A stretch of DNA of 20,500 bases from a virus. Of the stretch, positions 7,444 to 20,373 are shown in pieces. The translations under genes and the position numbers were made by a program. The notes under the pieces were generated by a model that worked only from the letters and a program-made list of their open reading frames with translations, was not told the DNA's origin and made no database searches. Within the stretch, counting starts at the first letter, position 1, and each line of letters begins with the position of its first letter. The stretch is from IMG/VR virus record IMGVR_UViG_3300023174_000753, positions 1 to 20,500 of that record, one strand, 5' to 3'.

Positions 7444-7460
7444 TCATCATTACAGATCCA

Positions 7461-7652
7461 TTGACTGGTACCATCCTTTCAATTTCATTGGCCGCCGGAG
7501 CGACGGGGATGGCGGAGCTGATTACGGGTTTGATTTGGATCTGCAAACAGCGATTAGCTTTAGCCATTATGAGTATGGTTATGTTTTGCTCGTGCGCATT
7601 TTTGGATTTGGATTTCAAATTCATTGGTTGGAATTTTAAACAAAAGTGTTGA
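7461..7652 (+). CDS. Small membrane protein with non-ATG start, up to 63 aa
   Basis: The frame is open from directly after the previous stop but contains no ATG until 7509. A TTG at 7461, or ATC/ATT codons a few positions upstream, would be needed to include the conserved-looking start PLTGTILSISLAAGATGMAE. From 7509 (preceded by GGAG nine bases upstream) a 47-residue protein results. The sequence has two hydrophobic stretches (ILSISLAAGATG and LALAIMSMVMFCSCAFL) and should be membrane-inserted. The function is unknown; a small holin-like or membrane-accessory protein is one possibility. Confidence 0.5.
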   Translation: MTGTILSISLAAGATGMAELITGLIWICKQRLALAIMSMVMFCSCAFLDLDFKFIGWNFKQKC

Positions 7653-7676
7653 CGCTTGATCTCTAAGTAGTACAAA
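7649..7676 (+). promoter_or_regulatory. Leaderless-type promoter TTGACG-N16-TACAAA
   Basis: TTGACG at 7649-7654 and TACAAA at 7671-7676 are 16 bases apart. The ATG at 7683 lies 34 bases after the first base. The upstream gene ends (TGA) inside the -35. Confidence 0.5.
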
Positions 7677-7682
7677 TGCATC

Positions 7683-7769
7683 ATGCCAAGACCATGCATG
7701 CGCTGCAAATATCGTCCGAAACCCAAAGCAACATTTAAACTTAAACTTCCTAAAAAGTTGAAAAAATGA
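7683..7769 (+). CDS. Basic CxxC micro-protein, 28 aa
   Basis: The frame encodes MPRPCMRCKYRPKPKATFKL and a few more lysine-rich residues. It has a CMRC pair and ten lysines, suggesting a metal- or nucleic-acid-binding peptide. It has its own promoter-like sequence with leaderless spacing. An alternative frame starting at the ATG at 7677 is less basic and less likely. Confidence 0.45.
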   Translation: MPRPCMRCKYRPKPKATFKLKLPKKLKK

Positions 7770-7793
7770 TTTGAAAAAAGATAACTATTATTT

Positions 7794-7964
7794 GTGGAGA
7801 ATTTCACAGATAAAGAAAAGAATTTGTTGATTCATATTGGGTTTCTTGTTTTGGATGATGAACGTTTAAGTTCCTGTGTGTTTCGGGAATTGCTTGATAT
7901 ATTTGACATTGAAGCAGATAGCACATCCGATACTTTATTGGAAAAACTGACAGATCTGGTTTGA
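7794..7964 (+). CDS. Small acidic protein with GTG start, 56 aa
   Basis: A GTG is the only plausible start between the in-frame stop at 7782 and the body of the frame. The protein (VENFTDKEKNLLIHIGFLVL ...) is helical and acidic, ending TSDTLLEKLTDLV, and is typical of small phage proteins. No Shine-Dalgarno sequence is evident. No family is recognised. Confidence 0.5.
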   Translation: MENFTDKEKNLLIHIGFLVLDDERLSSCVFRELLDIFDIEADSTSDTLLEKLTDLV

Positions 7965-8139
7965 GCCGCTTGATTTCTTTTACCCTTACCTTAACATGCT
8001 TTTAGTTCTTTCTCCTGTTCAATCACCTGTGGTGGTTGGCTCAGAGCGTTGTTGTTCATTGTTAAGGGTCGTGTTTGTTCCCGTAACAGAGTCAGATAAT
8101 GTCTGGCAGGAGAAGGAACTATTTTATTATAAAATAGTC
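7965..8139 (+). other. Gap with hairpins and a doubtful 53-codon frame
   Basis: A frame from ATG 7996 to TAA 8157 is open but runs through the promoter of the next gene and has unusual composition, so I do not call it a gene. GTTCC (8072-8076) can pair with GGAAC (8115-8119) around an inner AGA/TCT. ACTATTTTAT/ATAAAATAGT (8118-8138) is a perfect AT-rich hairpin just before the promoter at 8140. AAGGGTCGTGTTT (8083-8095) is repeated in the non-coding region at 18551-18563. Confidence 0.35.
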
Positions 8140-8170
8140 TTGACATTTTGCAAATAATTTGGCAACCTGC
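8140..8170 (+). promoter_or_regulatory. Leaderless-type promoter TTGACATTTTGCAAATAATT
   Basis: TTGACA (8140-8145) is followed by ATTT-TGC-AAAT and the AAATAATT block. The ATG at 8177 is 37 bases after the first base and there is no Shine-Dalgarno sequence. The -10 position is poor. The same 15 bases from the -35 onward occur at 10749. Confidence 0.6.
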
Positions 8171-8176
8171 TCGCAT

Positions 8177-8452
8177 ATGAAAATGATGCATGCAAATCAA
8201 GTAAGAGTAGTCGATGATCCAGCAGAGCTGTTGCTTAAAGCAATCCTTGAGCAAGCTGTGATGGATATAGTGCAACCCAATCAATCTGTGGATAAAGAAG
8301 CTCATCTTACTGCTATAAAACTTATCAGCAGTTGCGTGTTGGATGAAATCATTGAAAGCAGTGATCTGAATCTGTGTCCAAGCGTTGTTCGGCAACGACT
8401 TAAAATCCCCCGCAACGAACTGGCAGATTATGATTATGGAGTGCGGGTATGA
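8177..8452 (+). CDS. Small hypothetical protein, 91 aa
   Basis: The ATG at 8177 is chosen because it fits the promoter spacing; ATGs at 8183 and 8186 follow at once. The protein is helical: VDDPAELLLKAILEQAVMDI, then HLTAIKLISSCVLDEIIESS, ending PRNELADYDYGVRV. It looks like a small all-alpha domain without recognisable active residues. It begins a coupled run of five genes to 9311, with ATGAG overlap to the next. Confidence 0.7.
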   Translation: MKMMHANQVRVVDDPAELLLKAILEQAVMDIVQPNQSVDKEAHLTAIKLISSCVLDEIIESSDLNLCPSVVRQRLKIPRNELADYDYGVRV

Positions 8453-8631
8453 GCCAATATACTAATGAAGATTTTATTAGAGATGATTGGGGATTAATTC
8501 AAGATGCTATCATTGATCATATCTCATATCTTAAGCATAGAAAGTCTTATGGATACGAGGAAGAGCTTGAGCGTCTAGAAGCTATTCTCAAAAAAATAAG
8601 CTTCAAGTATGCAATCGCACCCAAGGAGTAA
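8449..8631 (+). CDS. Small hypothetical protein, 60 aa
   Basis: The gene starts four bases before the end of the upstream gene. The protein is helical with an acidic N terminus (YTNEDFIRDDWGLIQDAI) and a coiled-coil-like EEELERLEAILKKI. The function is unknown. Confidence 0.7.
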   Translation: MSQYTNEDFIRDDWGLIQDAIIDHISYLKHRKSYGYEEELERLEAILKKISFKYAIAPKE

Positions 8632-8635
8632 TTTC

Positions 8636-8797
8636 ATGAACTTAACTGAATATGACCAAACCATTATATTTGAAGCAGCTAGAATTGCATTAAGTGATGC
8701 AAATATTTTCGATATGCTGTGTGATGAAATGGACATTGATGATGATCATTTACAGGAAATTCGCTCTCGTTTAGAAAAACATATGGAGACTGCATGA
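8636..8797 (+). CDS. Conserved small phage protein, 53 aa
   Basis: AAGGAG eight bases upstream selects the ATG at 8636 over one at 8609 that would overlap the upstream gene. The sequence MNLTEYDQTIIFEAARIALS, then FDMLCDEMDIDDDHLQEI, matches a short phage protein pattern I have seen elsewhere (DADIFDMLCDEMDISD). Its function is not known. TGA overlaps the next ATG by four bases. Confidence 0.7.
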   Translation: MNLTEYDQTIIFEAARIALSDANIFDMLCDEMDIDDDHLQEIRSRLEKHMETA

Positions 8798-9060
8798 ACT
8801 TTATTGTTAGCAAAAAAGAGATGCTGGATACTGTTGGCTTTATCAGTGGCCAACGCATACACTTCAAGATGCCCGTGGAGTTTGATCAGTTGATCAACAA
8901 CACAGAAGGAATAACATATATAAATTCTCTTGTGGACGATTTTGTTGAGGATGGTTATCTGCTTCAAGATTTGAATTACTTTCCTGAAAAGCTGGAAGGT
9001 GAAACCATTATCGTCAGCGTGGATGCGCTTACTGATGAATGGTTGAAAGGAGATTCATAA
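8794..9060 (+). CDS. Small acidic hypothetical protein, 88 aa
   Basis: Coupled by ATGA to the upstream gene and by TAATG to the downstream one. The protein mixes predicted strands and helices (MNFIVSKKEMLDTVGFISGQ; INSLVDDFVEDGYLLQDLNY; ETIIVSVDALTDEWL). No family is recognised. Confidence 0.7.
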   Translation: MNFIVSKKEMLDTVGFISGQRIHFKMPVEFDQLINNTEGITYINSLVDDFVEDGYLLQDLNYFPEKLEGETIIVSVDALTDEWLKGDS

Positions 9061-9311
9061 TGAGAGCAGGAAGATACAGCACATTTGAAAAGAGTTATCA
9101 ACCCTTAACAAAGCAGGATGGCAGTATTCTTTTTGAAACATATGGATATGATCTGGAGGAGGTGATTAATACAAACTATAACCACATATGGACACTACTG
9201 GATTGTGATGGCAAGTTGAGGATAGGTGCAGGTTATCATATTGTTAACCGAATGAACTACATCATCACAAAGTATCCTTGGATCAGCAACGAGTTGTGCT
9301 TTAGTTATTAA
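9060..9311 (+). CDS. Small hypothetical protein, 83 aa
   Basis: The start overlaps the previous stop by one base; a longer in-frame start at 9039 is rejected for the overlap. The protein is rich in Tyr and Asn (LFETYGYDLEEVINTNYNHI; LRIGAGYHIVNRMNYIITKY), with WTLLDCDG in the middle, suggesting a small alpha/beta fold. It is the last gene of the run. No family is recognised. Confidence 0.7.
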   Translation: MRAGRYSTFEKSYQPLTKQDGSILFETYGYDLEEVINTNYNHIWTLLDCDGKLRIGAGYHIVNRMNYIITKYPWISNELCFSY

Positions 9312-9405
9312 CTTCTTACCAAGGATAGTATCGAAATAATTTGCGGTCTGACCAAAAATTCATCTATCCTGTCTATTAGAAAAGTTTGCCCAGCAAACAC
9401 ATGTT
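9312..9405 (+). promoter_or_regulatory. Inverted repeat and TCTATTAGAAAAG box before tRNA-Thr
   Basis: AGGATAG (9322-9328) pairs exactly with CTATCCT (9364-9370). The loop holds GAAATAATTTGCGG and GACCAAAAATTCA. TCTATTAGAAAAG follows (9372-9384). The GACCAAAA-TTCA plus TCTA-TAGAAAAG order repeats the element at 30-65. It probably helps control the tRNA-Thr gene or marks the end of the unit before it. Confidence 0.35.
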
Positions 9406-9478
9406 GCCGGATTAGCACAGTGGTAGTTGCAGCGGTTTTGTAAACCGCAGGTCGTCGGTTCAAATCCGACATCCGGCT
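9406..9478 (+). tRNA. tRNA-Thr (UGU)
   Basis: Acceptor GCCGGAT/ATCCGGC, anticodon stem GCGGT/ACCGC with loop TTTGTAA (anticodon TGT), variable AGGTC, T arm GTCGG-TTCAAAT-CCGAC, discriminator T. The D stem GCA/TGC is only three pairs. No CCA is encoded. Confidence 0.93.
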
Positions 9479-9485
9479 CATTATA

Positions 9486-9605
9486 TTATTTTCTAAAACG
9501 CAGAAACACTTCGTAAACGAATATTATTCCACACAATACTATTGATACTGGAATTACAAAAGTCAGCATTGTTCCTAGCATAAATTTTAAAACATCTTCA
9601 ATCAT
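9486..9605 (-). CDS. Membrane micro-protein, 39 aa
   Basis: The frame starts eight bases inside the upstream gene's end and encodes a protein with a central hydrophobic segment (MLGTMLTFVIPVSIVLCGII) followed by FVYEVFLRFRK. The charge pattern (acidic N-terminal MIEDVL, basic end) predicts one membrane helix. It is the last of seven overlapping micro-genes. The function is unknown. Confidence 0.55.
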   Translation of the reverse strand: MIEDVLKFMLGTMLTFVIPVSIVLCGIIFVYEVFLRFRK

Positions 9606-9795
9606 TGGGAGGATTTATTAAAGGATTTATGCTTTCCAGAAACTTTTCAATCTTTTCCATTTCTTCCGGGGAAACATTATTGTTATTGTCATTTTTTTCA
9701 GTATCCATGCTGTATCCTTGATCACTTTTGCTTTTTATATAATAATTATTGTCAGGCAGATCTTCAGGATCAGGCAAAAGCCAAGGATCAATCAT
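9598..9795 (-). CDS. Small acidic, Asn/Pro-rich protein, 65 aa
   Basis: Begins MIDPWLLPDPEDLPDNNYYI, continues with an Asp/Asn-rich linker (NDNNNN) and ends in a short helix EEMEKIEKFLESINPLINPP. It is mostly disordered in appearance and acidic. It is the longest gene of the 9486-10255 micro-gene run. The function is unknown. Confidence 0.55.
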   Translation of the reverse strand: MIDPWLLPDPEDLPDNNYYIKSKSDQGYSMDTEKNDNNNNVSPEEMEKIEKFLESINPLINPPND

Positions 9796-9829
9796 GAATC
9801 CAGATTAACATAACATGCTGGCAAATCAA

Positions 9830-9913
9830 TTAAGTTTCGTATAAATAAAAGTAAACAACTGCCAATAAAGCAGTTACACCAATTATACCAAATATTAAAA
9901 ATATCTGATTCAC
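9830..9913 (-). CDS. Membrane micro-protein with GTG start, 27 aa
   Basis: GTG overlaps the upstream TGA as GTGA. The peptide is nearly all one hydrophobic helix (IFLIFGIIGVTALLAVVYFY) with a short polar end, LYET. No Shine-Dalgarno sequence is seen, so coupling to the upstream gene is required. Confidence 0.45.
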   Translation of the reverse strand: MNQIFLIFGIIGVTALLAVVYFYLYET

Positions 9914-10008
9914 TTCTCGTGTTCGCTACGATTCAGTATCAAAGCGTAGCTGACACTAACAAATGTGCTGACCAGATAACCAACCAACGCGTATCCAACA
10001 ATGGACAT
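9910..10008 (-). CDS. Membrane micro-protein, 32 aa
   Basis: Encodes one predicted membrane helix (IVGYALVGYLVSTFVSVSYA) followed by LILNRSEHEK. An in-frame ATG two codons earlier (10014) is an alternative start. It lies 10 bases after the CxxC micro-protein and overlaps the next gene by GTGA. Confidence 0.5.
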   Translation of the reverse strand: MSIVGYALVGYLVSTFVSVSYALILNRSEHEK

Positions 10009-10018
10009 TAACATAGAA

Positions 10019-10138
10019 TTATTTATCATCTTTCTTTTTCTTTTTTCTGCATTTTTCACATTCGCATTCGTCCCAGAGAAATGGTTTTTGCCATTCTTCT
10101 TTCTCTTTCACTTTTCTTTTGCAAATGAAACAAGTCAT
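10019..10138 (-). CDS. Cys-cluster micro-protein, 39 aa
   Basis: MTCFICKRKVKEKEEWQKPF is followed by a CECEKC cluster and a lysine-rich end (KKKKKDDK). Two CxxC motifs about 20 residues apart (C3/C6 and C27/C30, with an extra Cys between) suggest a small zinc finger. The start overlaps the upstream stop by ATGA. The longer frame on the opposite strand here has low-complexity Phe-rich composition and is its shadow. Confidence 0.55.
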   Translation of the reverse strand: MTCFICKRKVKEKEEWQKPFLWDECECEKCRKKKKKDDK

Positions 10139-10176
10139 AAAAAAATTCTGCAAGGAACGATAGGAAACTTAGTCAT
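10135..10176 (-). CDS. Possible 13-residue peptide linking two micro-genes
   Basis: A 14-codon frame (MTKFPIVPCRIFL) overlaps its upstream neighbour by eight bases (ATGACTAA) and its downstream neighbour by ATGA. Such linked overlaps on both sides suggest that it is translated, perhaps only to carry ribosomes onward. It is too short for compositional support. Confidence 0.3.
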   Translation of the reverse strand: MTKFPIVPCRIFL

Positions 10177-10255
10177 GTGCACATGAGGTCCTACCTATAC
10201 AGCCACCGCAAATGGTATCCGCCTTGCAAATAGAATTACAGCAAAAACGCACCAT
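10169..10255 (-). CDS. Cysteine-rich micro-protein, 28 aa
   Basis: The 28-residue peptide has six cysteines (CC, C, CGGC, C in order), a compact metal- or disulfide-bonded pattern. It is the first of the overlapping leftward run. TATAAT at 10286-10291 (complement strand) lies about 30 bases upstream and may be its -10, in a region divergent from the rightward promoter at 10297. Confidence 0.45.
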   Translation of the reverse strand: MVRFCCNSICKADTICGGCIGRTSCAHD

Positions 10256-10296
10256 ATTGTCAATAAAAAATTTGAAAAAAAGTTTTTATTATATGC

Positions 10297-10330
10297 TTGA
10301 CATTTGTGAAATAATTGATCCAGGAATAAA
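10297..10330 (+). promoter_or_regulatory. Promoter-like TTGACATTTGTGAAATAATT
   Basis: The 21 bases from TTGACA to the G after AAATAATT are the same as those at 5821. No ATG lies at the usual distance, so this copy would make a transcript with a leader of about 50 bases or more, or be a regulatory copy. It faces a TATAAT on the opposite strand. Confidence 0.5.
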
Positions 10331-10349
10331 AAGATTTTGAAAAATATTC

Positions 10350-10378
10350 TTGCTATTTTTATCAAAATAATTTAGAAC
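10350..10378 (+). promoter_or_regulatory. Promoter TTGCTA-N17-TAGAAC
   Basis: TTGCTA (10350-10355), a 17-base spacer containing CAAAATAATT, and TAGAAC (10373-10378). The ATG of a nine-residue frame at 10386 is exactly 36 bases after the first base. Confidence 0.5.
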
Positions 10379-10385
10379 AAAAAGA

Positions 10386-10415
10386 ATGAAGCAAGCAACT
10401 CGTGAGATCGTGTGA
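10386..10415 (+). CDS. Possible nine-residue leader peptide
   Basis: ATG at the leaderless position opens the short frame MKQATREIV ending in TGA, 40 bases before the next gene. It may be a leader peptide controlling the downstream gene. Support comes only from spacing. Confidence 0.3.
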   Translation: MKQATREIV

Positions 10416-10455
10416 TCAAAGAGAAGATTGTTTCAACCCTAATGGAGAATCTATA

Positions 10456-10704
10456 ATGAACAAAATCAAATTGAGCATTGATCGAGGAGGCATTCGCATG
10501 CCCAGCAAAAAGAAACTGAACCCCATCAAACGGGCATTGAGTCGCATGGGAATTGGTGATCGGGTAATGTTCCCATCCAAATACTATGCCAGAATCGTGC
10601 CATTGGTATATCACTATGGCCGTGTGTTGGGCGTGAAAGTAACCATTCGCCGTCTTAACGATGAGACTTATGCGTTTTGGCGGGTGATCGGGGAATTGAT
10701 CTAG
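10456..10704 (+). CDS. Small basic hypothetical protein, 82 aa
   Basis: The protein is strongly basic: PSKKKLNPIKRALSRMGIGD, then RVMFPSKYYARIVPLVYHYG and KVTIRRLNDETYAFWRVI. The second half, from the ATG at 10498, reads like a small nucleic-acid-binding alpha/beta domain. Both starts are plausible: 10456 has GGAG eight bases upstream, and 10498 has a very strong GAGGAGG seven bases upstream, giving a 68-residue form. Both forms may be made. Longer frames begin at non-ATG codons and are rejected. A terminator follows the stop. Confidence 0.65.
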   Translation: MNKIKLSIDRGGIRMPSKKKLNPIKRALSRMGIGDRVMFPSKYYARIVPLVYHYGRVLGVKVTIRRLNDETYAFWRVIGELI

Positions 10705-10720
10705 TTTGGTTAGGGAAGGA

Positions 10721-10747
10721 AAGTGGGGAGGATACTAACCCATTTTT
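10721..10747 (+). terminator. Terminator with conserved GAGGATACTAA loop
   Basis: AAGTGGG pairs with CCCATTT (one G-T pair) around the loop GAGGATACTAA, followed by T5. The same 11-base loop occurs in the terminator at 17704-17737 and, with one change, at 17213-17237. It separates the gene ending at 10704 from the promoter at 10749. Confidence 0.7.
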
Positions 10748-10748
10748 C

Positions 10749-10778
10749 TTGACATTTTGCAAATTATTCGGCATAAAA
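10749..10778 (+). promoter_or_regulatory. Leaderless-type promoter TTGACA-N17-CATAAA
   Basis: TTGACA (10749-10754), spacer TTTTGCAAATTATTCGG, then CATAAA. The ATG at 10785 is 36 bases after the first base, without a Shine-Dalgarno sequence. Confidence 0.65.
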
Positions 10779-10784
10779 ACACAC

Positions 10785-11159
10785 ATGAAAATTGTTCTGT
10801 TCTTGAAAGATGATAAACAAGAATGTGTATACATATCTGAAGAAGGTGGAGTGGCTTGTGCTCATTTTAATGGGGATATGATCATTTCAGAATATTACCA
10901 AGACAGATTGTCAAAAAAAGATTTGCAGAATAATGATCTTACCATATGGGAAATATTGGGTGAAGGTAAAATGTATGGCACTGAGTGGCCAGATAAAACC
11001 AGGATTGATCAGGAAGTATTGGAAGATTTAAGAGAATCATTGGTTAGTGAAGAAGAAACTGAAATTAAAGAATATCATTTGAATTGGCAAGATATGGAAA
11101 AGGATGAAGGAGATTATCCATTCCTGCAAACATTCCTGCAAACATTTTTAACATCTTGA
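10785..11159 (+). CDS. Acidic hypothetical protein, 124 aa
   Basis: The start at 10785 matches the promoter; an in-frame extension to 10677 has no ATG and crosses the terminator. The protein begins with strand-like MKIVLFLKDDKQECVYI, has a central DLTIWEILGEGKMYGTEWPD and an acidic second half (EVLEDLRESLVSEEETEIKE). The end repeats FLQTFLQTFL. The stop TGA is embedded in the next TTGACA. No family is recognised. Confidence 0.7.
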   Translation: MKIVLFLKDDKQECVYISEEGGVACAHFNGDMIISEYYQDRLSKKDLQNNDLTIWEILGEGKMYGTEWPDKTRIDQEVLEDLRESLVSEEETEIKEYHLNWQDMEKDEGDYPFLQTFLQTFLTS

Positions 11160-11184
11160 CATTCTTTCAAAAATAATCTATAAA
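11156..11184 (+). promoter_or_regulatory. Leaderless-type promoter TTGACA-N17-TATAAA
   Basis: The clearest member of this class: TTGACA (11156-11161), a 17-base spacer with CAAAAATAATC, TATAAA (11179-11184), and ATG at 11192, 36 bases after the first base. The upstream gene's TGA lies within the -35. Confidence 0.8.
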
Positions 11185-11191
11185 AAACAAT

Positions 11192-11599
11192 ATGACAAAC
11201 AAAGAACTGCTACAACTATTATCAGGTTTGAAAATCAAAAGAATCACTGTGCAATATAGCGGAAGCGGTGATAGTGGTCAGACTGATGATATTGATGTTG
11301 AACCCAGTGGTAGAGCAAATCTTTTGGATGAAAACTTTGATGATAAAGAGACTATTCGTGAAGCATTGGATAGGATTTGTTGGAGTGCTATTGAAGATGA
11401 ACAAAGTGGCTTTTACAACAATGAAGGTGGGTTTGGTGAATTGGTAATTGATGTAGATGAAAAAACCATTCAACTGAATCATACCAATTATATTCAAGAA
11501 ACTGATTATAGTGAACATACCATATATGATGCGAAAGATGATGAATCACCTGCACCTGAACCTGATAAGAAAAAGAAAGTTAAAAGGAATCCTGTTTAA
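11192..11599 (+). CDS. DUF6878-like protein, 135 aa
   Basis: The pattern ITVQYSGSGDSGQTDDIDV, a later AIEDEQSGFYNNEGGFGELV and DVDEKTIQLNHTNYI matches what I recall of DUF6878 proteins (ITVEYSGSGDSGQ ... GGWENNDGGFG ... H). Residues after 115 are an acidic then lysine-rich tail (PAPEPDKKKKVKRNPV). The biochemical role of the family is unknown. It is in one unit with the next gene, whose ATG shares the A of its stop codon. Confidence 0.8.
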   Translation: MTNKELLQLLSGLKIKRITVQYSGSGDSGQTDDIDVEPSGRANLLDENFDDKETIREALDRICWSAIEDEQSGFYNNEGGFGELVIDVDEKTIQLNHTNYIQETDYSEHTIYDAKDDESPAPEPDKKKKVKRNPV

Positions 11600-11970
11600 T
11601 GGCTAATCCTTACCATCACTCTGTCAGCTCATCCCGCAAATACGGAGGCAAGCCAGAGGACTATCAACATATCCATGACTGGTTTGATGAAAGCAAAATG
11701 ATGATGGCAGACTTTCGCCATCGTGCTTTGCGTCATCATGCCGAGGGCATCTTTATGTGTGAAAGAATCTTTGGTCATACCATCAAGAATAGCGATGGTC
11801 GGGTGATTCCTGTTCGTTGGATTGGCGAACAACATGTGAAGGAGGACTTGGGTCGTATTCCCAGCATACAAGACTGGTATAGCCAGATTCGTCCCCTACG
11901 CTGGATGGGTGAACCTCCTGTGAAGCTGGAGAAGGAACTGGAGAAGCAACAAGAAGCAACAACAGGATAA
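11599..11970 (+). CDS. DUF6915-like protein, 123 aa
   Basis: NPYHHSVSSSRKYGGKPEDY, IHDWFDESK, DFRHRALRHHAEGIF and IGEQHVKEDLGRIPSIQDW match the strongly conserved core of a phage and bacterial family I know as DUF6915. Many histidines and acids are conserved, so a metal-dependent activity is conceivable but not established. The C-terminal part (KLEKELEKQQEATTG) is a polar tail. Translation is coupled through TAATG. Confidence 0.85.
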   Translation: MANPYHHSVSSSRKYGGKPEDYQHIHDWFDESKMMMADFRHRALRHHAEGIFMCERIFGHTIKNSDGRVIPVRWIGEQHVKEDLGRIPSIQDWYSQIRPLRWMGEPPVKLEKELEKQQEATTG

Positions 11971-11984
11971 GTAACAGGATAAGA

Positions 11985-12086
11985 ATGAATCGTGAATTGA
12001 TTAAATTAAAATATAAAATCTTTTTGACACGATTGGAAATTGAGTTTGTTACCATTAAATTATTCCTAGCCAGCATGTTCTGCTGA
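11985..12086 (+). CDS. Small hydrophobic-basic peptide, 33 aa
   Basis: ATG is preceded by AGGA at a good distance. The frame encodes MNRELIKLKYKIFLTRLEIE and a hydrophobic end (FVTIKLFLASMFC), an amphipathic or membrane-seeking peptide. It ends three bases before tRNA-Gln and contains that tRNA's likely promoter. The function is unknown. Confidence 0.45.
   Translation: MNRELIKLKYKIFLTRLEIEFVTIKLFLASMFC
12024..12052 (+). promoter_or_regulatory. Likely promoter of tRNA-Gln
   Basis: TTGACA (12024-12029) and TGTTAC (12047-12052) are 17 bases apart and lie inside the 33-residue frame. Start of transcription would fall about 30 bases before the tRNA. Confidence 0.45.
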
Positions 12087-12089
12087 TAT

Positions 12090-12160
12090 TGCCGGATGGT
12101 GTAACGGTAGCACCGCAGATTTTGGCTCTGCGTGTCTAGGTTCGAATCCTAGTCCGGCAG
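12090..12160 (+). tRNA. tRNA-Gln (UUG)
   Basis: Acceptor TGCCGGA/TCCGGCA, D stem GTGT/GCAC, anticodon stem GCAGA/TCTGC with loop TTTTGGC (anticodon TTG), T arm CTAGG-TTCGAAT-CCTAG, and discriminator G as expected for Gln. No CCA is encoded. Confidence 0.93.
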
Positions 12161-12175
12161 TTGAAGATCAACTAT

Positions 12176-12998: not shown

Positions 12999-13555
12999 GC
13001 TGTTACCATCTTTTTATGGCTATGCATGTTGTCCACGATTGCTTTTGCTTCAAGCAATGCATTCTCATAGCTGTATCCCCTACCATAGCTGTATCCCCAG
13101 CTTCTATCCATATCCTCGTCATCTTTTTTTATAACATATCCATAAACATTTCCGCTAATATAATCGTCATACGCTTTCACTTCATTGCGAAACGTATCCT
13201 TTACCTTTTCAATCAAATTTTTAGTTACCTTTTTCACACCATACCAACTGCGGATTTTATTATAATCAGCATATATGCATCCCACCATGCCACTATCCCA
13301 ACGACAACTAAAGCCAGTGGTATTCATGGTGATACCGCTATGATCGTAAAGGTAAAGAGGAAGAACAACAACATCTTTAATCTTTCCTGCCAACATGTTT
13401 AACACTTCATCTTTGTTTGCATTAACATCATCTCCTAAATTGTACCTGCGGTGCTTGCAAAGCATTCGACCAAGATTGGCATTTTCCATTCTTGGATTGA
13501 TGGGGTTATCGTCTTGCTCAATCAGTATTTCGTAACCTTTATAATCAGTTTTCAT
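12995..13555 (-). CDS. Hypothetical protein, 186 aa
   Basis: GGGGAGG eight bases before the ATG is a strong ribosome site and lies in the upstream coding sequence. The protein begins MKTDYKGYEILIEQDDNPIN, has MLCKHRRYNLGDDVN, and a central LYLYDHSGITMNTTGFSCRWDSGMVGCIY resembling a beta-rich core. A helical part follows (VKKVTKNLIEKVKDTFRNEV), then DDYISGNVYGYVI. The DHSGITMNT...WDSG...GCIYADY pattern recalls conserved uncharacterised phage proteins. The last 30 residues contain YSYGRGYSYENALLEAKAIV. No function is assigned. Confidence 0.75.
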   Translation of the reverse strand: MKTDYKGYEILIEQDDNPINPRMENANLGRMLCKHRRYNLGDDVNANKDEVLNMLAGKIKDVVVLPLYLYDHSGITMNTTGFSCRWDSGMVGCIYADYNKIRSWYGVKKVTKNLIEKVKDTFRNEVKAYDDYISGNVYGYVIKKDDEDMDRSWGYSYGRGYSYENALLEAKAIVDNMHSHKKMVTA

Positions 13556-13665
13556 TTTTCATCCTCCCCATATTCTTTTGCCATAAGTTCCAAATCTTCA
13601 CCATGAATAGTGGTGAAAAGCGGGTTATCCAACTTGTCCATGAGCAGATCCAATTTATTTTTCAT
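13552..13665 (-). CDS. Small acidic micro-protein, 37 aa
   Basis: Encodes MKNKLDLLMDKLDNPLFTTI and a second acidic helix (EDLELMAKEYGEDEK). Its TGA overlaps the ATG of the 186-residue gene, and its own last codons supply that gene's Shine-Dalgarno site. It has a promoter with leaderless spacing, so it may act as the translated leader of the unit. Confidence 0.55.
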   Translation of the reverse strand: MKNKLDLLMDKLDNPLFTTIHGEDLELMAKEYGEDEK

Positions 13666-13672
13666 AAAATAG

Positions 13673-13701
13673 GTATTACCCAATTATTTGTTAAATGTAA
13701 A
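13673..13701 (-). promoter_or_regulatory. Leaderless-type promoter TTTACA-N17-TAATAC
   Basis: On the complement, TTTACA starts at 13701, the spacer holds ATTT-AAC-AAATAATT, and TAATAC occupies 13678-13673. The ATG at 13665 is 36 bases after the first base. It is closely similar to the promoter at 15365-15393. Confidence 0.75.
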
Positions 13702-13709
13702 GCTTTATT

Positions 13710-14243
13710 TTAGCAACGACTGATAACGCCCTTCTCACTCTTTTTCTCATTGAGGGCCACACATTCTTGTAAATTTTGGGCAAGCGTGGCTGGACAACAA
13801 TCTTTAAACAACTCAAAGTCAAAATCAGCCACCATATTCACATAGAATTTTCTGCCATCCATGTCACTTTTGTAACACCAATCTTTTTTGCCAGAATCGG
13901 GGTATTCTCCAAATCCACGATAAACCTTCAGACTGCGATGATCAAAGTCAAAGATATAGCTCCATTCACAAAACAAGCCATCTTTATAGAATTTTTCACC
14001 ATCCTGCAATACTGGTCGATCAAATGCCCAATCCATGTCAAACACGCTTTTGTGACCTTCATATGCACTTTCATCCTGCACAAATTCTATTCTGCTAAAG
14101 AAACTCTTTAAAGTTTCCACATCATGAAGCAAACACTTTTCAAACACTTCCACGCCCAGACATGTAGGATAGCTGTCATGATGGTTATACCATCCCATTA
14201 TGTTTTTGTTCTTTTTGTATCCAACAAATCCACGTGTGCTCAT
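13710..14243 (-). CDS. Conserved hypothetical protein (STRGFVGYKKN family), 177 aa
   Basis: The N-terminal pattern MSTRGFVGYKKNKNIMGWYN, followed by HHDSYPTCLG, matches a conserved family of phage and bacterial proteins of unknown function (M.TRG.YGF.K.G..K..YNHFDSYP.GLG). The middle is rich in aromatic and acidic residues (FCEWSYIFDFDHRSLKVYRG), and the end has FELFKDCCPATLAQNLQECV. Unlike most genes here it has a strong AGGAG seven bases before the ATG, within a run of AT-rich sequence, and it starts 35 bases after the upstream gene. Confidence 0.8.
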   Translation of the reverse strand: MSTRGFVGYKKNKNIMGWYNHHDSYPTCLGVEVFEKCLLHDVETLKSFFSRIEFVQDESAYEGHKSVFDMDWAFDRPVLQDGEKFYKDGLFCEWSYIFDFDHRSLKVYRGFGEYPDSGKKDWCYKSDMDGRKFYVNMVADFDFELFKDCCPATLAQNLQECVALNEKKSEKGVISRC

Positions 14244-14277: not shown

Positions 14278-14766
14278 TTATGGTATTCTGAAACTTTGAC
14301 CAGTAAAAGGATCGAAAATAACTTGTCCACTCACCAGCCGATTGCTTCCCCGATCAAAATTAAAATTGCTGTATGGACTTTTCACAAATCCGTTACCTTG
14401 CACAATGCCAGAAGGAACGCTGTTGGGATCATAGTTGGAATATACCTGCCCTCCGCTAGATGTAGGATAGTTGGCATATTGTTGAACAGGTTGTTGAACA
14501 TATCTTGGTTGATATGCCATTTGTTGCTGTTGCTGTTGCTGATTAACCCTCATTGTTCCTGCCGCATTCATTGCACAAGCACCCAACAAACTTCCTACCA
14601 TTTTAGCGTCGCTTCCTTTGCTGATCATAGGAGCAATCAAAGCTCCCAGCAAACCGCCAATAGCAGTTTCGGTCGGCACTCCTGTTCCGCTACCAAAGCT
14701 GAATAGTTGAGCATTACAATTTTCAATATATCCTGCTAATAGCAATGTTAAGATTAATTTTTTCAT
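14278..14766 (-). CDS. Secreted or membrane protein with glycine-zipper segment and poly-Gln, 162 aa
   Basis: MKKLILTLLLAGYIENCNA is a signal peptide with cleavage expected after the final Ala. Residues of about 35-72 are a glycine/alanine-rich hydrophobic segment (GGLLGALIAPMISKG; MVGSLLGACAMNAAG) similar to glycine-zipper membrane regions. A run of seven glutamines and a Tyr/Pro/Gln-rich stretch follow. The C-terminal part ends FDPFTGQSFRIP. The envelope location resembles that of the lipoprotein at 828, but the sequences are not related beyond the zipper. The promoter and ATG have leaderless spacing. Confidence 0.75.
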   Translation of the reverse strand: MKKLILTLLLAGYIENCNAQLFSFGSGTGVPTETAIGGLLGALIAPMISKGSDAKMVGSLLGACAMNAAGTMRVNQQQQQQQMAYQPRYVQQPVQQYANYPTSSGGQVYSNYDPNSVPSGIVQGNGFVKSPYSNFNFDRGSNRLVSGQVIFDPFTGQSFRIP

Positions 14767-14773
14767 GATTTAT

Positions 14774-14802
14774 TTAATAAACAATTATTTGTTAAATGTC
14801 AA
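14774..14802 (-). promoter_or_regulatory. Leaderless-type promoter TTGACA-N17-TATTAA
   Basis: On the complement, TTGACA starts at 14802 and overlaps the TGA stop of the upstream gene. The spacer holds ATTT-AAC-AAATAATT, and TATTAA follows at the right distance. The ATG at 14766 is 36 bases after the first base. Confidence 0.75.
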
Positions 14803-14957
14803 ACCTTAATATCGCATCTTTCCAGGGTATTCATTTTGCCATCCAATCGTATAACGATTTTGGCAACTGCAAATCGGTGATTGTCGGTCAGATAAACTGC
14901 TCCGCCATTTGTTTCGTGACGATACAATATTATGTTTTTCTTTTTTTGTTTTTTCAT
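14799..14957 (-). CDS. Small basic hypothetical protein, 52 aa
   Basis: The gene starts five bases after the upstream stop. The protein has a lysine-rich start (MKKQKKKN) and a strand-rich body (IILYRHETNGGAVYLTDNHR; AVAKIVIRLDGK). Its stop lies in the -35 of the next promoter. No family is recognised. Confidence 0.6.
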   Translation of the reverse strand: MKKQKKKNIILYRHETNGGAVYLTDNHRFAVAKIVIRLDGKMNTLERCDIKV

Positions 14958-14962
14958 AAAAT

Positions 14963-15358
14963 TTAAAAAGTTGTTACCTTAAACTCCAAAGTGTTTTCCA
15001 ATTCATTTTCACTTGGTTTATACCAAATGATATCTTTTTCAATATGGTGTGGAAAAAGGGTGTCAGGAACGCTGGTTGTGTTGCCCATCTTGTCGCTACA
15101 CACCAGCAACGCTTTTCCTGCAAATGGTTGGCTGAAAAGTTTATATTTAAAATATCTTTGTTCTTCGCTATTCTTCAACAAACCTTCATCATCCAATATC
15201 ATGTCTAATGCATTCATGCCCACACCCAGTCGTGTAATGGTGATAAGATCACAACCCAGTGTGCTGTATAATTGTTCCAGATCAGTTCCAATTTTCACTT
15301 CACTCACTTTTTCAAGGAATGGATCAATCAATATGGCCCGCACGTTTTTATTTTTCAT
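14963..15358 (-). CDS. DUF3846-like protein, 131 aa
   Basis: VRAILIDPFLEKVSEVKIG, then LEQLYSTLGCDLITITRLG, LDMILDDEGLLKN and QPFAGKALLVCSD follow the order of the DUF3846 domain that I recall from phages and conjugative elements (IDP....V.E......L..IY..L.C..I......D..DDEGL ... G.AL.....). The last 40 residues (LFPHHIEKDIIWYKPSENEL) are less typical. The family's role is not known. Promoter spacing is leaderless. Confidence 0.78.
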   Translation of the reverse strand: MKNKNVRAILIDPFLEKVSEVKIGTDLEQLYSTLGCDLITITRLGVGMNALDMILDDEGLLKNSEEQRYFKYKLFSQPFAGKALLVCSDKMGNTTSVPDTLFPHHIEKDIIWYKPSENELENTLEFKVTTF

Positions 15359-15364
15359 AAAATA

Positions 15365-15393
15365 GGATTACCCAATTATTTCTTAAATGTAAA
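15365..15393 (-). promoter_or_regulatory. Leaderless-type promoter TTTACA-N17-TAATCC
   Basis: On the complement, TTTACA starts at 15393 and TAATCC occupies 15370-15365, with ATTT-AAG-AAATAATT in the spacer. The ATG at 15358 is 35 bases after the first base. It closely resembles the copy at 13673-13701, through the shared TATTTTATGAAAAATAAA downstream. Confidence 0.75.
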
Positions 15394-15403
15394 GCTAAAT
15401 GTT

Positions 15404-16452: not shown

Positions 16453-16481
16453 TGTTTAACTTATTTTTAATAAAATGTAAA
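16453..16481 (-). promoter_or_regulatory. Leaderless-type promoter TTTACA-N17-TAAACA
   Basis: On the complement, TTTACA starts at 16481 and is followed by TTTTATTAAAAATAAG and TAAACA. The ATG at 16445 is 36 bases after the first base. Its spacer is nearly identical to that of the promoter at 17047-17075. Confidence 0.65.
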
Positions 16482-16493: not shown

Positions 16494-16958
16494 TTATAGT
16501 TCACCTGCCATCATCTTATATTCCTGCTCCTGCACCCAAAGATCATGGCAAAGCAGTTTCAACGCTTCGGGATTGGGATTCAAAAGATCCAGATTGTAAT
16601 TGGCAAAAGCTGGCTTGGAAGATACCTTGACCGCTTCGGGCGAAATTGCCTCCAATTTCTTTTGGATGGCGGGCCCGTAAAACCGCATCAGCTGGCGGGC
16701 ATACTTGGGCATCAGTCGAAAGACCACCGTCATTTGTTTGGCTGAAAGAGTTCCTCTCTGAGCAAGCTGGTTGGCAAAGCTGGTGAGAATGATCGAATCG
16801 GTGGCACAAAATCCCATCGCATTGTCGTGCGTAACATTGGCACTGACCTGTTCATCAGCGGTTTGGTTTTTGAAGATGGCAAGCAACGCCCTTTGTGCCC
16901 AGCGAATGTCATTGGAAAGTTTCAGTTTCAACGCTTCGAGAGTTTCCGCTTTGGTCAT
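16494..16958 (-). CDS. Phage protein with LTSFANQLAQRG-LS-KQ module, 154 aa
   Basis: Residues of about 42-95 (NAMGFCATDSIILTSFANQL, then GTLSAKQMTVVFRLMPKYARQLMRF) match a short helical module I recall in several phage proteins (GF...D...LTS...Q....G.LS.KQ......L.KY..QL). Its exact role is unknown, although it occurs near DNA-recombination and helicase genes. The N-terminal 40 residues are helical and carry ALLAIFKNQTADEQ. The gene follows, after one base, an 18-codon leader peptide that is duplicated at 18227. AAAGGA five bases upstream is the likely ribosome site. Confidence 0.7.
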   Translation of the reverse strand: MTKAETLEALKLKLSNDIRWAQRALLAIFKNQTADEQVSANVTHDNAMGFCATDSIILTSFANQLAQRGTLSAKQMTVVFRLMPKYARQLMRFYGPAIQKKLEAISPEAVKVSSKPAFANYNLDLLNPNPEALKLLCHDLWVQEQEYKMMAGEL

Positions 16959-16959
16959 G

Positions 16960-17016
16960 TTATCCTTTCGATCTCCCTTTCACATTCACCTTTGGTTCAG
17001 CTATCGCCTCTGCCAT
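16960..17016 (-). CDS. Leader peptide, copy 1, 18 aa
   Basis: The peptide MAEAIAEPKVNVKGRSKG stops one base before the ATG of the 154-residue gene. The copy at 18227 differs by one residue (Glu to Lys) and one silent change. Conservation of frame and stop position argues for real translation, with termination-reinitiation at the main gene. Confidence 0.5.
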   Translation of the reverse strand: MAEAIAEPKVNVKGRSKG

Positions 17017-17042
17017 TCGGTTCTTGTTCTTGTTTGATCTTT
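16960..17042 (-). repeat. Duplicated 5' leader module, copy 1 (83 bp)
   Basis: Identical to 18227-18309 at 81 of 83 positions. Its upstream edge coincides with the expected transcription start of the promoter at 17047-17075, and its downstream edge with the start codon of the gene. Confidence 0.9.
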
Positions 17043-17046
17043 CACG

Positions 17047-17075
17047 AGACTATCTTATTTTTAATAAAATGTCGA
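17047..17075 (-). promoter_or_regulatory. Promoter TCGACA-N17-TAGTCT
   Basis: On the complement, TCGACA starts at 17075 and TAGTCT ends at 17047. The start of transcription would be near 17040, giving an mRNA that carries the leader module. The upstream sequence AAAAA-AATAATC-TCGACA is repeated at 17159-17180. Confidence 0.5.
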
Positions 17076-17127
17076 GATTATTTTTTAAAAACTTTTTATA
17101 TAAAATAAAAAAAAGTCCCTTCCTCAT
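17050..17127 (-). CDS. Possible basic peptide, 25 aa
   Basis: A 26-codon frame beginning MRKGLFFILYKKFLKNN lies 37 bases after a second TCGACA (first base 17164), which matches the leaderless spacing. It is basic and amphipathic but runs through the promoter of the next unit, so support is weak. Confidence 0.25.
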   Translation of the reverse strand: MRKGLFFILYKKFLKNNLDILLKIR

Positions 17128-17175
17128 CGTCCGTCATTCTTTCATAAATTCAATAGTTTGTCGAGATTATTTTTC

Positions 17176-17207
17176 AAAAAAAAACATATCCCAAAAGGGA
17201 TATGTTT
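17176..17207 (-). terminator. Strong leftward terminator
   Basis: On the complement, ACATATCCC-TTTT-GGGATATGT is a perfect 9-bp hairpin followed by a run of nine T residues. It ends the leftward unit of the coiled-coil gene at 17247. A less perfect version of the same hairpin is at 723-740. Confidence 0.85.
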
Positions 17208-17212
17208 GGTTG

Positions 17213-17237
17213 AAGTGGGTTAGTAACCTCCCCAGTT
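17213..17237 (-). terminator. Degenerate terminator with GAGGTTACTAA loop
   Basis: On the complement, TGGG-GAGGTTACTAA-CCCA forms a four-pair stem with the loop conserved at 10728-10738 and 17719-17729 apart from one base. It has no T tract. The strong hairpin at 17185-17207 seems to have replaced its function. Confidence 0.5.
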
Positions 17238-17246
17238 CAGTTAAAG

Positions 17247-17453
17247 TTAGTATCGGATTTCGTTCTGCACCGATTGTGATAGCGTCAACCGATTGTAATC
17301 GTTCTGCAAACGATCCACCTTGTTTTCCAAGTTGGTGATCATGTTCAGCATTCCCTGCATGATATCGTTATGCTGACCGATCAGTGACTGAATGTTAATG
17401 ATCTCTTGGGCAAGTGCTTTAATATCTTGTTTCATATTTTTACCTCCTTTCAT
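17247..17453 (-). CDS. Small coiled-coil protein, 62 or 68 aa
   Basis: Heptad-like spacing in IKALAQEIINIQSLIGQHND and MLNMITNLENKVDRLQNDYNRL indicates a coiled-coil dimer or trimer. Two starts are plausible. ATG 17453 lies exactly 35 bases after the -35 of the promoter below, the leaderless position. ATG 17435 has a strong AGGAGGT eight bases upstream, contained in the first codons of the longer form. Both may be used. The function is unknown; short coiled coils often serve as assembly or adaptor proteins. Confidence 0.7.
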   Translation of the reverse strand: MKGGKNMKQDIKALAQEIINIQSLIGQHNDIMQGMLNMITNLENKVDRLQNDYNRLTLSQSVQNEIRY

Positions 17454-17459
17454 TTATTG

Positions 17460-17488
17460 GTTCTAGATTATTTTCGAAATAATTGCAA
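17460..17488 (-). promoter_or_regulatory. Promoter TTGCAA-N17-TAGAAC with full dyad
   Basis: On the complement, TTGCAA starts at 17488 and TAGAAC occupies 17465-17460. The spacer contains the perfect dyad ATTATTT-N3-AAATAAT (17467-17483), a complete form of the half-conserved dyad in other promoters. This could be an operator. Confidence 0.6.
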
Positions 17489-17490
17489 GC

Positions 17491-17688
17491 TCAAACCGCC
17501 TCCTTAATCTCTTCGAATCTCTTCCGATAAAGTCTTGTTGCACAATCCAGATAACTAAGCGCATCGGCTGGATCGCAGTGTTCAAGTTTTCTGATAATGT
17601 CTGCCAAGACATAGGGAGGGTAAGATTCTAGGATTTCGAAGCGTTGTTGCTCATAGGATTTGTTTAAGGTTTTCATATCTTTGTTCAT
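17491..17688 (-). CDS. Small helical hypothetical protein, 65 aa
   Basis: The sequence is helical: MKTLNKSYEQQRFEILESYP, PYVLADIIRKLEHCDPADAL and YLDCATRLYRKRFEEI. PPYVLADIIRKLEHCDP resembles a small helical bundle. An ATG five codons later is also possible. No ribosome site is seen, only an AT-rich leader behind the terminator at 17704, so read-through or a weak promoter must supply transcription. Confidence 0.65.
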   Translation of the reverse strand: MNKDMKTLNKSYEQQRFEILESYPPYVLADIIRKLEHCDPADALSYLDCATRLYRKRFEEIKEAV

Positions 17689-17703
17689 AAAAATTTATAT
17701 TTT

Positions 17704-17737
17704 AAAAAAAGAATGGGGTTAGTATCCTCCCCCATTC
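17704..17737 (-). terminator. Strong leftward terminator with GAGGATACTAA loop
   Basis: On the complement, GAATGGGG-GAGGATACTAA-CCCCATTC forms an 8-bp stem followed by seven T residues. It lies eight bases behind the gene ending at 17746. The loop is identical to that at 10728-10738. Confidence 0.88.
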
Positions 17738-17745
17738 AATATAAG

Positions 17746-18225
17746 TTATCCCAGCACCTCCTCGATGGTTACTCCTGCCACTCGAACACTACCTTTGATA
17801 ACCTTGCTGGTCTTGCTTTTGATTTTGGCAAGAGCCAGTTCAGCATCCTTCTTCGCCAGCTTCTCGGCTTCATCATCCAGATTCTCGGCTTCATTCACGA
17901 TGCTGTCGATGGTCACGCCATTCAGCTTGTTGAGTGCCACCGCCAGCAACCGCCACGGCTTCGCTTGTTGCACACTCAATGTCTCGTGGTCTTCACCTTT
18001 AGTGAACCCGAACCGAACCCGAATCGTCTTGTCGATGTTTCCTTGCATTTCCATTTCAGGAATCATCGCCTTGATCGCATCCTTGTCGGCAACTGCCGAG
18101 AACGCTTTCCAAATCATATAGGTCTCGATCTCGCCTACAATTCGAGTGTTGTTGATTTCCCCGATGCCTTGGGGAATCTGAGGGAGGGGATTGATTTCAC
18201 CCTCGGTCTTGATTCTTTTAGCCAT
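17746..18225 (-). CDS. Hypothetical phage protein, 159 aa
   Basis: MAKRIKTEGEINPLPQIPQG is followed by IGEINNTRIVGEIETYMIWK and KDAIKAMIPEMEMQGNIDKT, then RFGFTKGEDHETLSVQQAKPWRL with LNKLNGVTID, and a long charged helix (EAENLDDEAEKLAKKDAELALAKIK). The GC content and codon use are higher than in most neighbours and resemble the RadA-like gene and the gene at 16494, hinting at a set of shared origin. I cannot name the family. Its 5' leader is the second copy of the duplicated module. Confidence 0.72.
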   Translation of the reverse strand: MAKRIKTEGEINPLPQIPQGIGEINNTRIVGEIETYMIWKAFSAVADKDAIKAMIPEMEMQGNIDKTIRVRFGFTKGEDHETLSVQQAKPWRLLAVALNKLNGVTIDSIVNEAENLDDEAEKLAKKDAELALAKIKSKTSKVIKGSVRVAGVTIEEVLG

Positions 18226-18226
18226 T

Positions 18227-18283
18227 TTATCCTTTCGATCTCCCTTTCACATTCACCTTTGGTTTGGCTATCGCCTCTGCCAT
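18227..18283 (-). CDS. Leader peptide, copy 2, 18 aa
   Basis: The peptide MAEAIAKPKVNVKGRSKG ends one base before the ATG of the 159-residue gene. See copy 1 at 16960. Confidence 0.5.
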   Translation of the reverse strand: MAEAIAKPKVNVKGRSKG

Positions 18284-18309
18284 TCGGTTCTTGTTCTTGT
18301 TTGATCTTT
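18227..18309 (-). repeat. Duplicated 5' leader module, copy 2 (83 bp)
   Basis: Matches 16960-17042 with two substitutions. The expected start of transcription (about 18307) is two bases inside its edge, exactly as in copy 1. Confidence 0.9.
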
Positions 18310-18313
18310 TTCC

Positions 18314-18342
18314 TTTCTAGCAAAAACTTTTATTCTTTGCAA
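18314..18342 (-). promoter_or_regulatory. Promoter TTGCAA-N17-TAGAAA
   Basis: On the complement, TTGCAA starts at 18342, with a 17-base spacer and TAGAAA at 18319-18314. It drives the second leader module. Confidence 0.5.
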
Positions 18343-18345
18343 TAA

Positions 18346-18732
18346 CAAAATGATTTATTTTGAAAATATTTTTCAACCATTGTTCATCAGCTTATCATGA
18401 TATGTTGATGCGTTGTTTGAATATGCATTCAGATATGATTGAAAAAATAATTTTGTTTTTCTATTAGACAAATTTTTTTACAAATCATTTAGTATGCTGA
18501 ATGATTCTGAAAAGAAATCGTTTATGCTGTAATAGTCTTACACTTTCAAAAAGGGTCGTGTTTTATAAATGATGGTCGTTTTTCAGAGATCATGCGTTTC
18601 ACAAACGTCAAGCGATTTCTAGAGGGGTGGCATTAGAATCGCTAATACAAAAAACGGATAAAGCTTTCCGACCGGGCCGCATGCCAACAATTTTTTAAAA
18701 ATTTTTTTATATTTTTTTATATATTTTTTATA
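18346..18732. other. Non-coding region with dyads and AT-rich tract
   Basis: No convincing gene on either strand for almost 390 bases. It contains the palindrome TATCATGATA (18393-18402) flanked by CATCA/TGATG, a 10-pair hairpin AATCATTTAG-TATG-CTGAATGATT (18483-18506), and AGCGATT/AATCGCT with CTA/TAG inside (18605-18636). It ends in a 45-base tract of A and T (18688-18734). TTTCTATTAGACAAA at 18457 resembles the box at 797. A replication origin or an untranslated RNA are candidate roles. Confidence 0.4.
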
Positions 18733-19647: not shown

Positions 19648-19938
19648 TTAAAAGAACATATCTTCAATTTTATTATATAAAAGATCTCCTTGTTCGCTAC
19701 CTAAAATATCCAATTCGTCATCGGTCAAGTCCCGACCATCTTTCCATTTTCCTGCACTAAAATAACCATCAAAATCCGGATAATCCCGTGTATTCACATC
19801 GCCCACTTCCAAAGAACCAATATCAATTTGATCAATGTCAATTGTATTTTGAGGATTGCGGTTTATATACCAATCCTTTCCTTCTTTCAAAAGCTTTAAA
19901 TTACGATAATAAAGATGATTAATTTTATCAATATCCAT
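19648..19938 (-). CDS. Conserved phage protein with DYPDF...LTDDELD module, 96 aa
   Basis: Residues of about 44-90 (VGDVNTRDYPDFDGYF, GKWKDGRDLTDDELDIL, DLLYNKIEDMF) match a pattern I recall in small phage proteins (DYPDFCDAYI..A...DG..LTDEELD.L...FVY....) of unknown function. The first 20 residues (MDIDKINHLYYRNLKLLKEG) closely match those of the next gene upstream. TAAATA ends five bases before the ATG, a T4-late-like box. Confidence 0.78.
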   Translation of the reverse strand: MDIDKINHLYYRNLKLLKEGKDWYINRNPQNTIDIDQIDIGSLEVGDVNTRDYPDFDGYFSAGKWKDGRDLTDDELDILGSEQGDLLYNKIEDMFF

Positions 19939-19946
19939 AAAATTAT

Positions 19947-20357
19947 TTAATCAAATATAAGTGCGGATTCTTCTGCAATTGGGGTTGTTCCGTCCACCAC
20001 CAATTTGAAAACAGAAGGTACTAATGGCAAAGTTATTTTAATTGGAACTTCTGCCTCTATTTCTTTTCCTTGGAAATCCACATTTATTGGATTCATATCA
20101 TCGACATCATCATATATGTCAAAAGACGACACTTTCACATCATACACACTGATGCTGCGAATACCGCTTTTTACAAAATCAAAATATATTTTATATGAAA
20201 CATCCACTTCTTGAAACGTTGGATAATCATATTCTTCCGGTTTGTTGTGATGTTCAACTTCCAAATCTACACGGGCAAAAAATGTGGGCGAATCGTTTTG
20301 TTCATTCAACATTTTGCGATTTTGATAATAAAGCTGGTTGATTTTGTCAATGTCCAT
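19947..20357 (-). CDS. Hypothetical protein, 136 aa
   Basis: The N terminus MDIDKINQLYYQNRKMLNEQ is shared with the adjacent gene. The rest is beta-rich and acidic (EVDVSYKIYFDFVKSGIRSI; YDVKVSSFDIYDDVDDMNPI; EIEAEVPIKITLPLVPSVFKLV). No family is recognised. The shared N terminus may be a localisation or packaging signal. It starts 17 bases after the stop of the partial gene upstream, with TAAATAAATATA in between. Confidence 0.7.
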   Translation of the reverse strand: MDIDKINQLYYQNRKMLNEQNDSPTFFARVDLEVEHHNKPEEYDYPTFQEVDVSYKIYFDFVKSGIRSISVYDVKVSSFDIYDDVDDMNPINVDFQGKEIEAEVPIKITLPLVPSVFKLVVDGTTPIAEESALIFD

Positions 20358-20373
20358 ATTGTTGTCTATATAT

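Follow-up and report, generated by a model that had tools for sequence, protein, structure and literature searches.

The leader that precedes two unrelated genes in this stretch of phage DNA is a conserved structured RNA, a conclusion that we hold with high confidence. The window, that is, the whole 20,500-nucleotide stretch that was analysed, is a 20.5-kb virus record representing a fragment of an uncultured phage. Both copies of the leader, as well as its diverged homologues in related contigs, fold into the same 65–70 nt hairpin at the 5′ end of the predicted transcript, and the fold is kept by compensatory changes in these homologues, at a constant 5′ UTR position before homologous genes, as in structured cis-regulatory RNAs.

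Duplicated leader and associated genes

The two copies of the leader, copy A (16960–17042) and copy B (18227–18309), are both located on the minus strand and are identical at 81 of 83 bases. A self-BLAST search recovered the repeat as a 93 bp match with 94.6% identity (E 6e-36), and the sole mismatches within the 83 bp are two neighbouring bases (TG versus CA). The predicted transcription start bounds the repeat at one end, and at the other end the similarity reaches barely into the region of the start codon. Copy A precedes an ORF of 154 aa and copy B an ORF of 159 aa, which are non-homologous. The elements of this region are as follows:

16494..16958, minus strand: accessory gene encoding a protein of 154 aa, whose N-terminal part matches phrog_21015, a family of unknown function
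16959..16969, minus strand: Shine-Dalgarno segment GAAAGGATAAC between hairpin A and the ATG, unpaired (sequence and fold)
16970..17039, minus strand: ladder hairpin of copy A, leader of the 154-aa gene (fold z -2.4; recovered in the strict ladder scan and by the covariance model of relatives, E 4e-8)
17746..18225, minus strand: gene encoding a protein of 159 aa, which bears the leader in every relative holding the gene
18226..18236, minus strand: Shine-Dalgarno segment GAAAGGATAAA between hairpin B and the ATG, unpaired (sequence and fold)
18237..18306, minus strand: ladder hairpin of copy B, leader of the 159-aa gene (fold z -2.9; recovered in the strict ladder scan and by the covariance model of relatives, E 9e-10)

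A preliminary description of this DNA had reported an 83-bp duplication before two unrelated genes, each copy starting at the predicted transcription start. The coordinates, the identity and the sizes of the two proteins were confirmed, as was the position of the start, and the -10 element stands equally far from the leader in both copies. The same duplication was sought in isolate phages with no match. Weak BLAST matches to isolate phages were judged to be chance, as were wider matches of the leader core in viral and bacterial contigs, of which the viral ones look protein-coding and lack the ladder fold.

The N-terminal family of the 154-aa protein occurs in unrelated phages, while the 159-aa family matched no known family and no solved structure significantly. 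An AlphaFold model of the 159-aa protein (pLDDT 37) was discarded, and a match of two members of its family to single-strand-binding protein (E 0.09 over 24 residues) was too weak to be used.

RNA fold of the leader

The leader folds into a rod composed of six helices of 2–4 bp, separated by internal loops that are free of U, mostly 3x3 and mostly purine. The base of the rod is a 4 bp GAUC/GAUC helix (with a GUUC/GAAC variant), above which stand five further short helices, and the tip is near-invariant (GGC-GAUA-GCY; with its flanks, CAGA-GGC-GAUA-GCY-RAA). Each of the seven distinct leaders, when folded singly, gave this rod in complete or almost complete form; in both copies of the window, no more than half of helix 2 is formed. 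The Shine-Dalgarno sequence is located directly 3′ of the rod and is largely unpaired, least clearly in contigs G010 and G015.

A scan of 636 kb for strict ladders of at least five helices found them only at these leaders, and in the window the two copies are the only strict ladders with at least four helices. In 2 Mb of random sequence there were two strict ladders of at least five helices and none with six. No Rfam covariance model matched the leader at its gathering score.

Conservation of the fold by compensatory change

Helices 2–5 differ between groups of leaders yet stay paired. The matched variants are CA/UG, GC/GC and CC/GG in one helix; ACA/UGU, GG/CC and CC/GG in another; and ACC/GGU, GC/GC and GGG/CUC, and UGG/CCA, GGG/CCC and GG/CC, in two further ones. 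When the alignment was anchored on the helices, 114 of 117 cells were paired and both sides had changed in 9 of 18 pairs. For the stalk, 97% of cells were paired, with changes on both sides in 8 of 16 pairs. These counts come from seven distinct hairpins, several of them closely related, so that the independent events are few. RNAalifold gave -17.5 for the helix-anchored alignment versus -0.5 ± 0.9 in 500 column shuffles. In the alignment made with a covariance model, 97.3% of cells were paired, and the covariation score was 0.458 versus 0.142 ± 0.036 after shuffling and at most 0.065 with slid partners.

The full covariation rests on the helix-anchored or covariance-model alignments, which favour structure, and a plain MAFFT alignment recovered the two top helices and no more; the single-sequence folds described above are independent of these alignments. 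In addition, a covariance model trained on three relatives and no window copy, and run on 495 kb, found copy B (9e-10), the leader of G001 (1.6e-9), copy A (4e-8) and the leader of G023 (9e-6). Weak matches of the covariance model at L064:7261, L070:4161 and L078:1943 were set aside as CAA-repeat coding sequence with unconvincing folds.

Comparison with related contigs

In total, 34 related contigs were gathered through a phage ATPase gene. A homologue of the 159-aa protein is present in 8 of them, with identities of about 28–94%; a ninth match, of 43 residues, was set aside from this count. In the same eight contigs (8/8) a diverged leader is located directly upstream of the homologue, with its core 52–55 nt before the start codon where this was measured. 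The nearest relative, G001 (IMGVR_UViG_3300032243_001447), the one close relative recovered with the leader and the 159-aa protein as queries, is about 94% identical to the window and largely collinear with it. It carries the 159-aa gene with a single leader and has neither the 154-aa gene nor the second leader, and the 154-aa gene is also absent from the other 33 relatives. According to the preliminary description, the two proteins may be needed in fixed proportion; none of the relatives has the pair of genes. Since the leader precedes the 159-aa homologue in all eight relatives and the 154-aa gene occurs in none, the leader is ancestrally tied to the 159-aa gene.

The site of copy A is otherwise collinear in G001, where it consists of a single promoter with ACATTTTATTAAAAATAAG. 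In the window, two promoter copies flank a unit formed by the leader and the 154-aa gene. The second copy is thus either specific to the window or lost in G001, and recombination between promoter repeats could give either result. The best reading is that the element was copied or transferred onto the accessory 154-aa gene. Gene conversion, which had been suggested to account for the identity of the copies, is not needed, because their divergence (2/83) is similar to that between the flanking regions of the window and G001 (3.5%).

A mobile regulatory cassette had also been suggested, to be checked by looking for the leader on other genes in related genomes; in all eight leader-bearing relatives it was found only before the 159-aa homologue. 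What stands of the regulatory cassette is that a complete 5′ UTR precedes a second, unrelated gene, of which the window is a clear case; peptide-dependent control or reinitiation does not, since the ATG is not conserved and the fold is. The mobile regulatory cassettes of T4-type phages are duplicated regulatory segments beside accessory genes that are gained and lost, and they carry a promoter. In the window a promoter repeat flanks the extra gene, yet the copied leader unit extends only from the predicted transcription start, without the promoter.

Elsewhere in the window, blocks with genes of 177 and 162 aa (repeats at 13654–13711, 14755–14812 and 15346–15403) are missing from the stretch of G001 that is collinear between promoter repeats. 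This suggests that these promoters serve as recombination points.

Promoters and the 5′ end of the transcript

The phage promoter motif is TTGACATTT...AAATAATT..., also present as T(T/C)(G/T)ACATTT-N3-AAATAATT. In the window it occurs at 5821, 8140 and 10749 on the plus strand and at 16481, 15393, 14802, 13701 and 12404 on the minus strand. The promoters and the terminator around the leaders are:

16453..16481, minus strand: TTTACA-17-TAAACA, the second promoter copy, which lies behind the 154-aa gene and drives an 87-aa gene; single in G001 (L006:1991)
17047..17075, minus strand: promoter of copy A, TCGACA-17-TAGTCT; of the pair that flanks the extra gene, this is the upstream copy (motif scan)
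17182..17207, minus strand: intrinsic terminator, located between the operon of the 159-aa gene and copy A (terminator scan)
18314..18342, minus strand: promoter-like TTGCAA-17-TAGAAA of copy B, with TG before the -10 element (recognised by eye, absent from the motif scan)

In most occurrences of the motif, in five records, an ORF initiated by ATG begins 35–37 nt downstream, while 0.25 per window would be expected by chance. With the ATG at this distance, the mRNAs would be leaderless or nearly so, and the phage appears, as judged from sequence, to make mostly leaderless mRNAs. The base of the hairpin lies at the same 35–37 nt from the promoter in copy A and in G008–G010 and G015–G017, so that, if the predicted starts are right, the rod would be the extreme 5′ end of the message. 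The promoters before the leader differ among copy A, copy B together with G001, G023, and the G015 group.

G001 encodes a sigma-70-type factor (L006:16704–17519), which might read the phage promoter motif. Upstream of copy B, a region of about 400 bp (18310–18718) has no convincing ORF, is about 96% conserved in G001 and holds a TTGACG-type promoter-like site at 18611.

Possible function of the leader

We tentatively propose that the leader is a cis-acting 5′ RNA operator of the 159-aa gene, read by a protein; the proposal is plausible, close to but short of probable. The structured leader would form the first ~73 nt of the mRNA, in which the GAUC base and then short helices with small U-free loops would make a rod capped by the near-invariant tip, with the Shine-Dalgarno sequence free on its 3′ side. 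A phage or host protein, perhaps the 159-aa product itself, would read the tip and so set the translation or the decay of the 159-aa mRNA, like autogenous phage operators. In the lineage of the window, the element also stands before the accessory 154-aa gene, which would put that gene under shared control.

The tip remains near-invariant while the downstream proteins fall to about 28% identity, which argues for sequence-specific recognition. The contrast of this near-invariant tip with a stalk that covaries freely suggests that the rod is a structural support and that the tip is what is recognised. With autogenous operators the leader shares a hairpin that lies close to the ribosome-binding site and has a conserved part for recognition, and its binding by the downstream product is putative. 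In the gene 43 operators of T4 and RB69, the top bases are identical between the phages, whose operators differ in length (PMC3014915). Like the leader, the autogenous operators of genes 43 and 32 in these phages are mRNA hairpins adjoining the ribosome-binding site. On the other hand, the leader has 65–70 nt and a ladder of small internal loops, is placed before the Shine-Dalgarno sequence and is also found before a second, unrelated gene, and any repressor that reads it is putative.

If this is true, the leader is an undescribed structured RNA element of unusually regular architecture, from an uncultured phage group. A broader proposal, which is doubtful, is that it represents a phage RNA of a new class, namely a rigid 5′-terminal ladder rod with a protein-read tip. 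Such a rod would spread by copying between genes, supplying each with a ready transcript start, and would form a small regulon amid mostly leaderless genes.

The main rival explanation, rather unlikely in our judgement and still to be taken seriously, is that the leader is a 5′-terminal mRNA stabiliser or translation booster needing no dedicated protein. The rod would block 5′-dependent decay, its short, loop-broken helices would escape the cleavage of long duplexes, and the free Shine-Dalgarno sequence would provide strong initiation. This explanation agrees with a hairpin that starts at the predicted +1, with the mostly unpaired Shine-Dalgarno segment (again least clearly in G010 and G015) and with the ATG standing at the predicted start in most other genes behind the phage promoter. 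It leaves unexplained the strict ladder geometry, as well as the near-invariance of the tip above a stalk that is free to change. In stabilising stem-loops of the ompA type, the hairpin precedes the ribosome-binding site and lies at the 5′ end of the mRNA or close to it. The leader shares this position and differs from them in its ladder of 2–4 bp helices, its small internal loops and its near-invariant tip.

It is improbable that the leader modifies the polymerase during elongation, as a processive antitermination RNA. The putL and putR elements of phage HK022, of about 70 nt, are located near the transcription start as two similar copies before two transcription units (PMC9378689), and the leader resembles them in size, in position and in being present as two similar copies in one phage genome. 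In the window, the copy-B operon is also followed by a terminator. However, put forms two stem-loops, while each of the seven leaders is a single rod located directly before a start codon, and a consensus scan found no same-strand terminator in the 4–5 kb that follow the leader in G008 and G016.

That the repeat works as DNA (an operator, an origin hairpin or a recombination site) and that its RNA fold is incidental is very improbable: GGCGATAGCC and GATC...GATC are near-palindromic and copy A lies in a rearranged site between promoter repeats, but the G-U pairs present on the sense strand of the leader would be A-C mismatches on the other strand, and the repeat starts exactly at the predicted +1 behind different promoters and keeps a constant place before the start codon.

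The 18-codon ORF

Both copies in the window contain an 18-codon ORF encoding the peptide MAEAIA(E/K)PKVNVKGRSKG, in which the two mismatched bases of the repeat form the E/K site:

16960..17016, minus strand: 18-codon ORF of copy A (MAEAIAEPKVNVKGRSKG), judged incidental (ATG unconserved in relatives and paired in the hairpin)
18227..18283, minus strand: 18-codon ORF of copy B (MAEAIAKPKVNVKGRSKG), judged incidental (ATG unconserved in relatives and paired in the hairpin)

The preliminary description read it as a leader peptide whose stop lies one base before the main ATG, and the sequence is indeed TAA-C-ATG or TAA-A-ATG. The peptide-dependent control or reinitiation proposed with it is not supported by the relatives. 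Among the eight relatives with a leader, the start ATG is present only in the nearest one, G001, besides the window, and it is absent from the seven other contigs (G023, G008–G010 and G015–G017). No Shine-Dalgarno sequence precedes this ATG in the window or in G001, and its U and G form pairs of the hairpin with a probability of 0.93–1.0 in the folds of both. Most relatives have a G-C pair at the position where the window and G001 have U-A, and it is the fold that is kept by compensatory changes. In G001 the stop codon of the ORF was lost, and a K to N change adds a base pair to the hairpin.

A natural two-cistron design, with an 18-residue leader peptide and reinitiation or peptide-dependent control, would account for a frame that is open in both copies of the window and in G001, for a stop that adjoins or overlaps the main start, including G001, where the stop has shifted, and for core-to-start distances of 52 or 55, which are the same modulo 3. 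It is nonetheless very improbable. The open frame mostly follows from the near absence of T in the leader, and a second reading frame is also open in several copies; the tail of the peptide is not conserved in G023. The conserved start codon and peptide that characterise a leader-peptide attenuator or upstream ORF are not shared across the relatives, and the peptide cassette was rejected on this ground. The 18-aa ORF is a by-product of the leader: an open, duplicated mini-ORF resembling a leader peptide proved to be the shadow of a conserved RNA fold.

Other features of the window

A direct repeat of 142 bp, with 73% identity (1099–1240 and 1358–1499), corresponds to the ends of two adjacent ORFs and is also present in G001; this ORF pair has the common motif NPYN.NE.LYV...GRTYVVGP and represents a tandem paralogue. 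Another repeat, of 68 bp and 75% identity (19872–19939 and 20291–20358), belongs to two neighbouring ORFs with the common N-terminus MDIDKINxLYYxN. Inside an ORF of 186 aa, a segment of 97 bp (13269–13365) is 78% identical to Bacillus phage vB_BcoS-136 and, over 71 bp, 83% identical to a fragment of a faecal phage; the stretch searched showed no further similarity to either of them. The region 4915–12161 on the plus strand includes six tRNA genes, one of which encodes a tRNA-Ile (anticodon TAT) that would serve the rare codon AUA.
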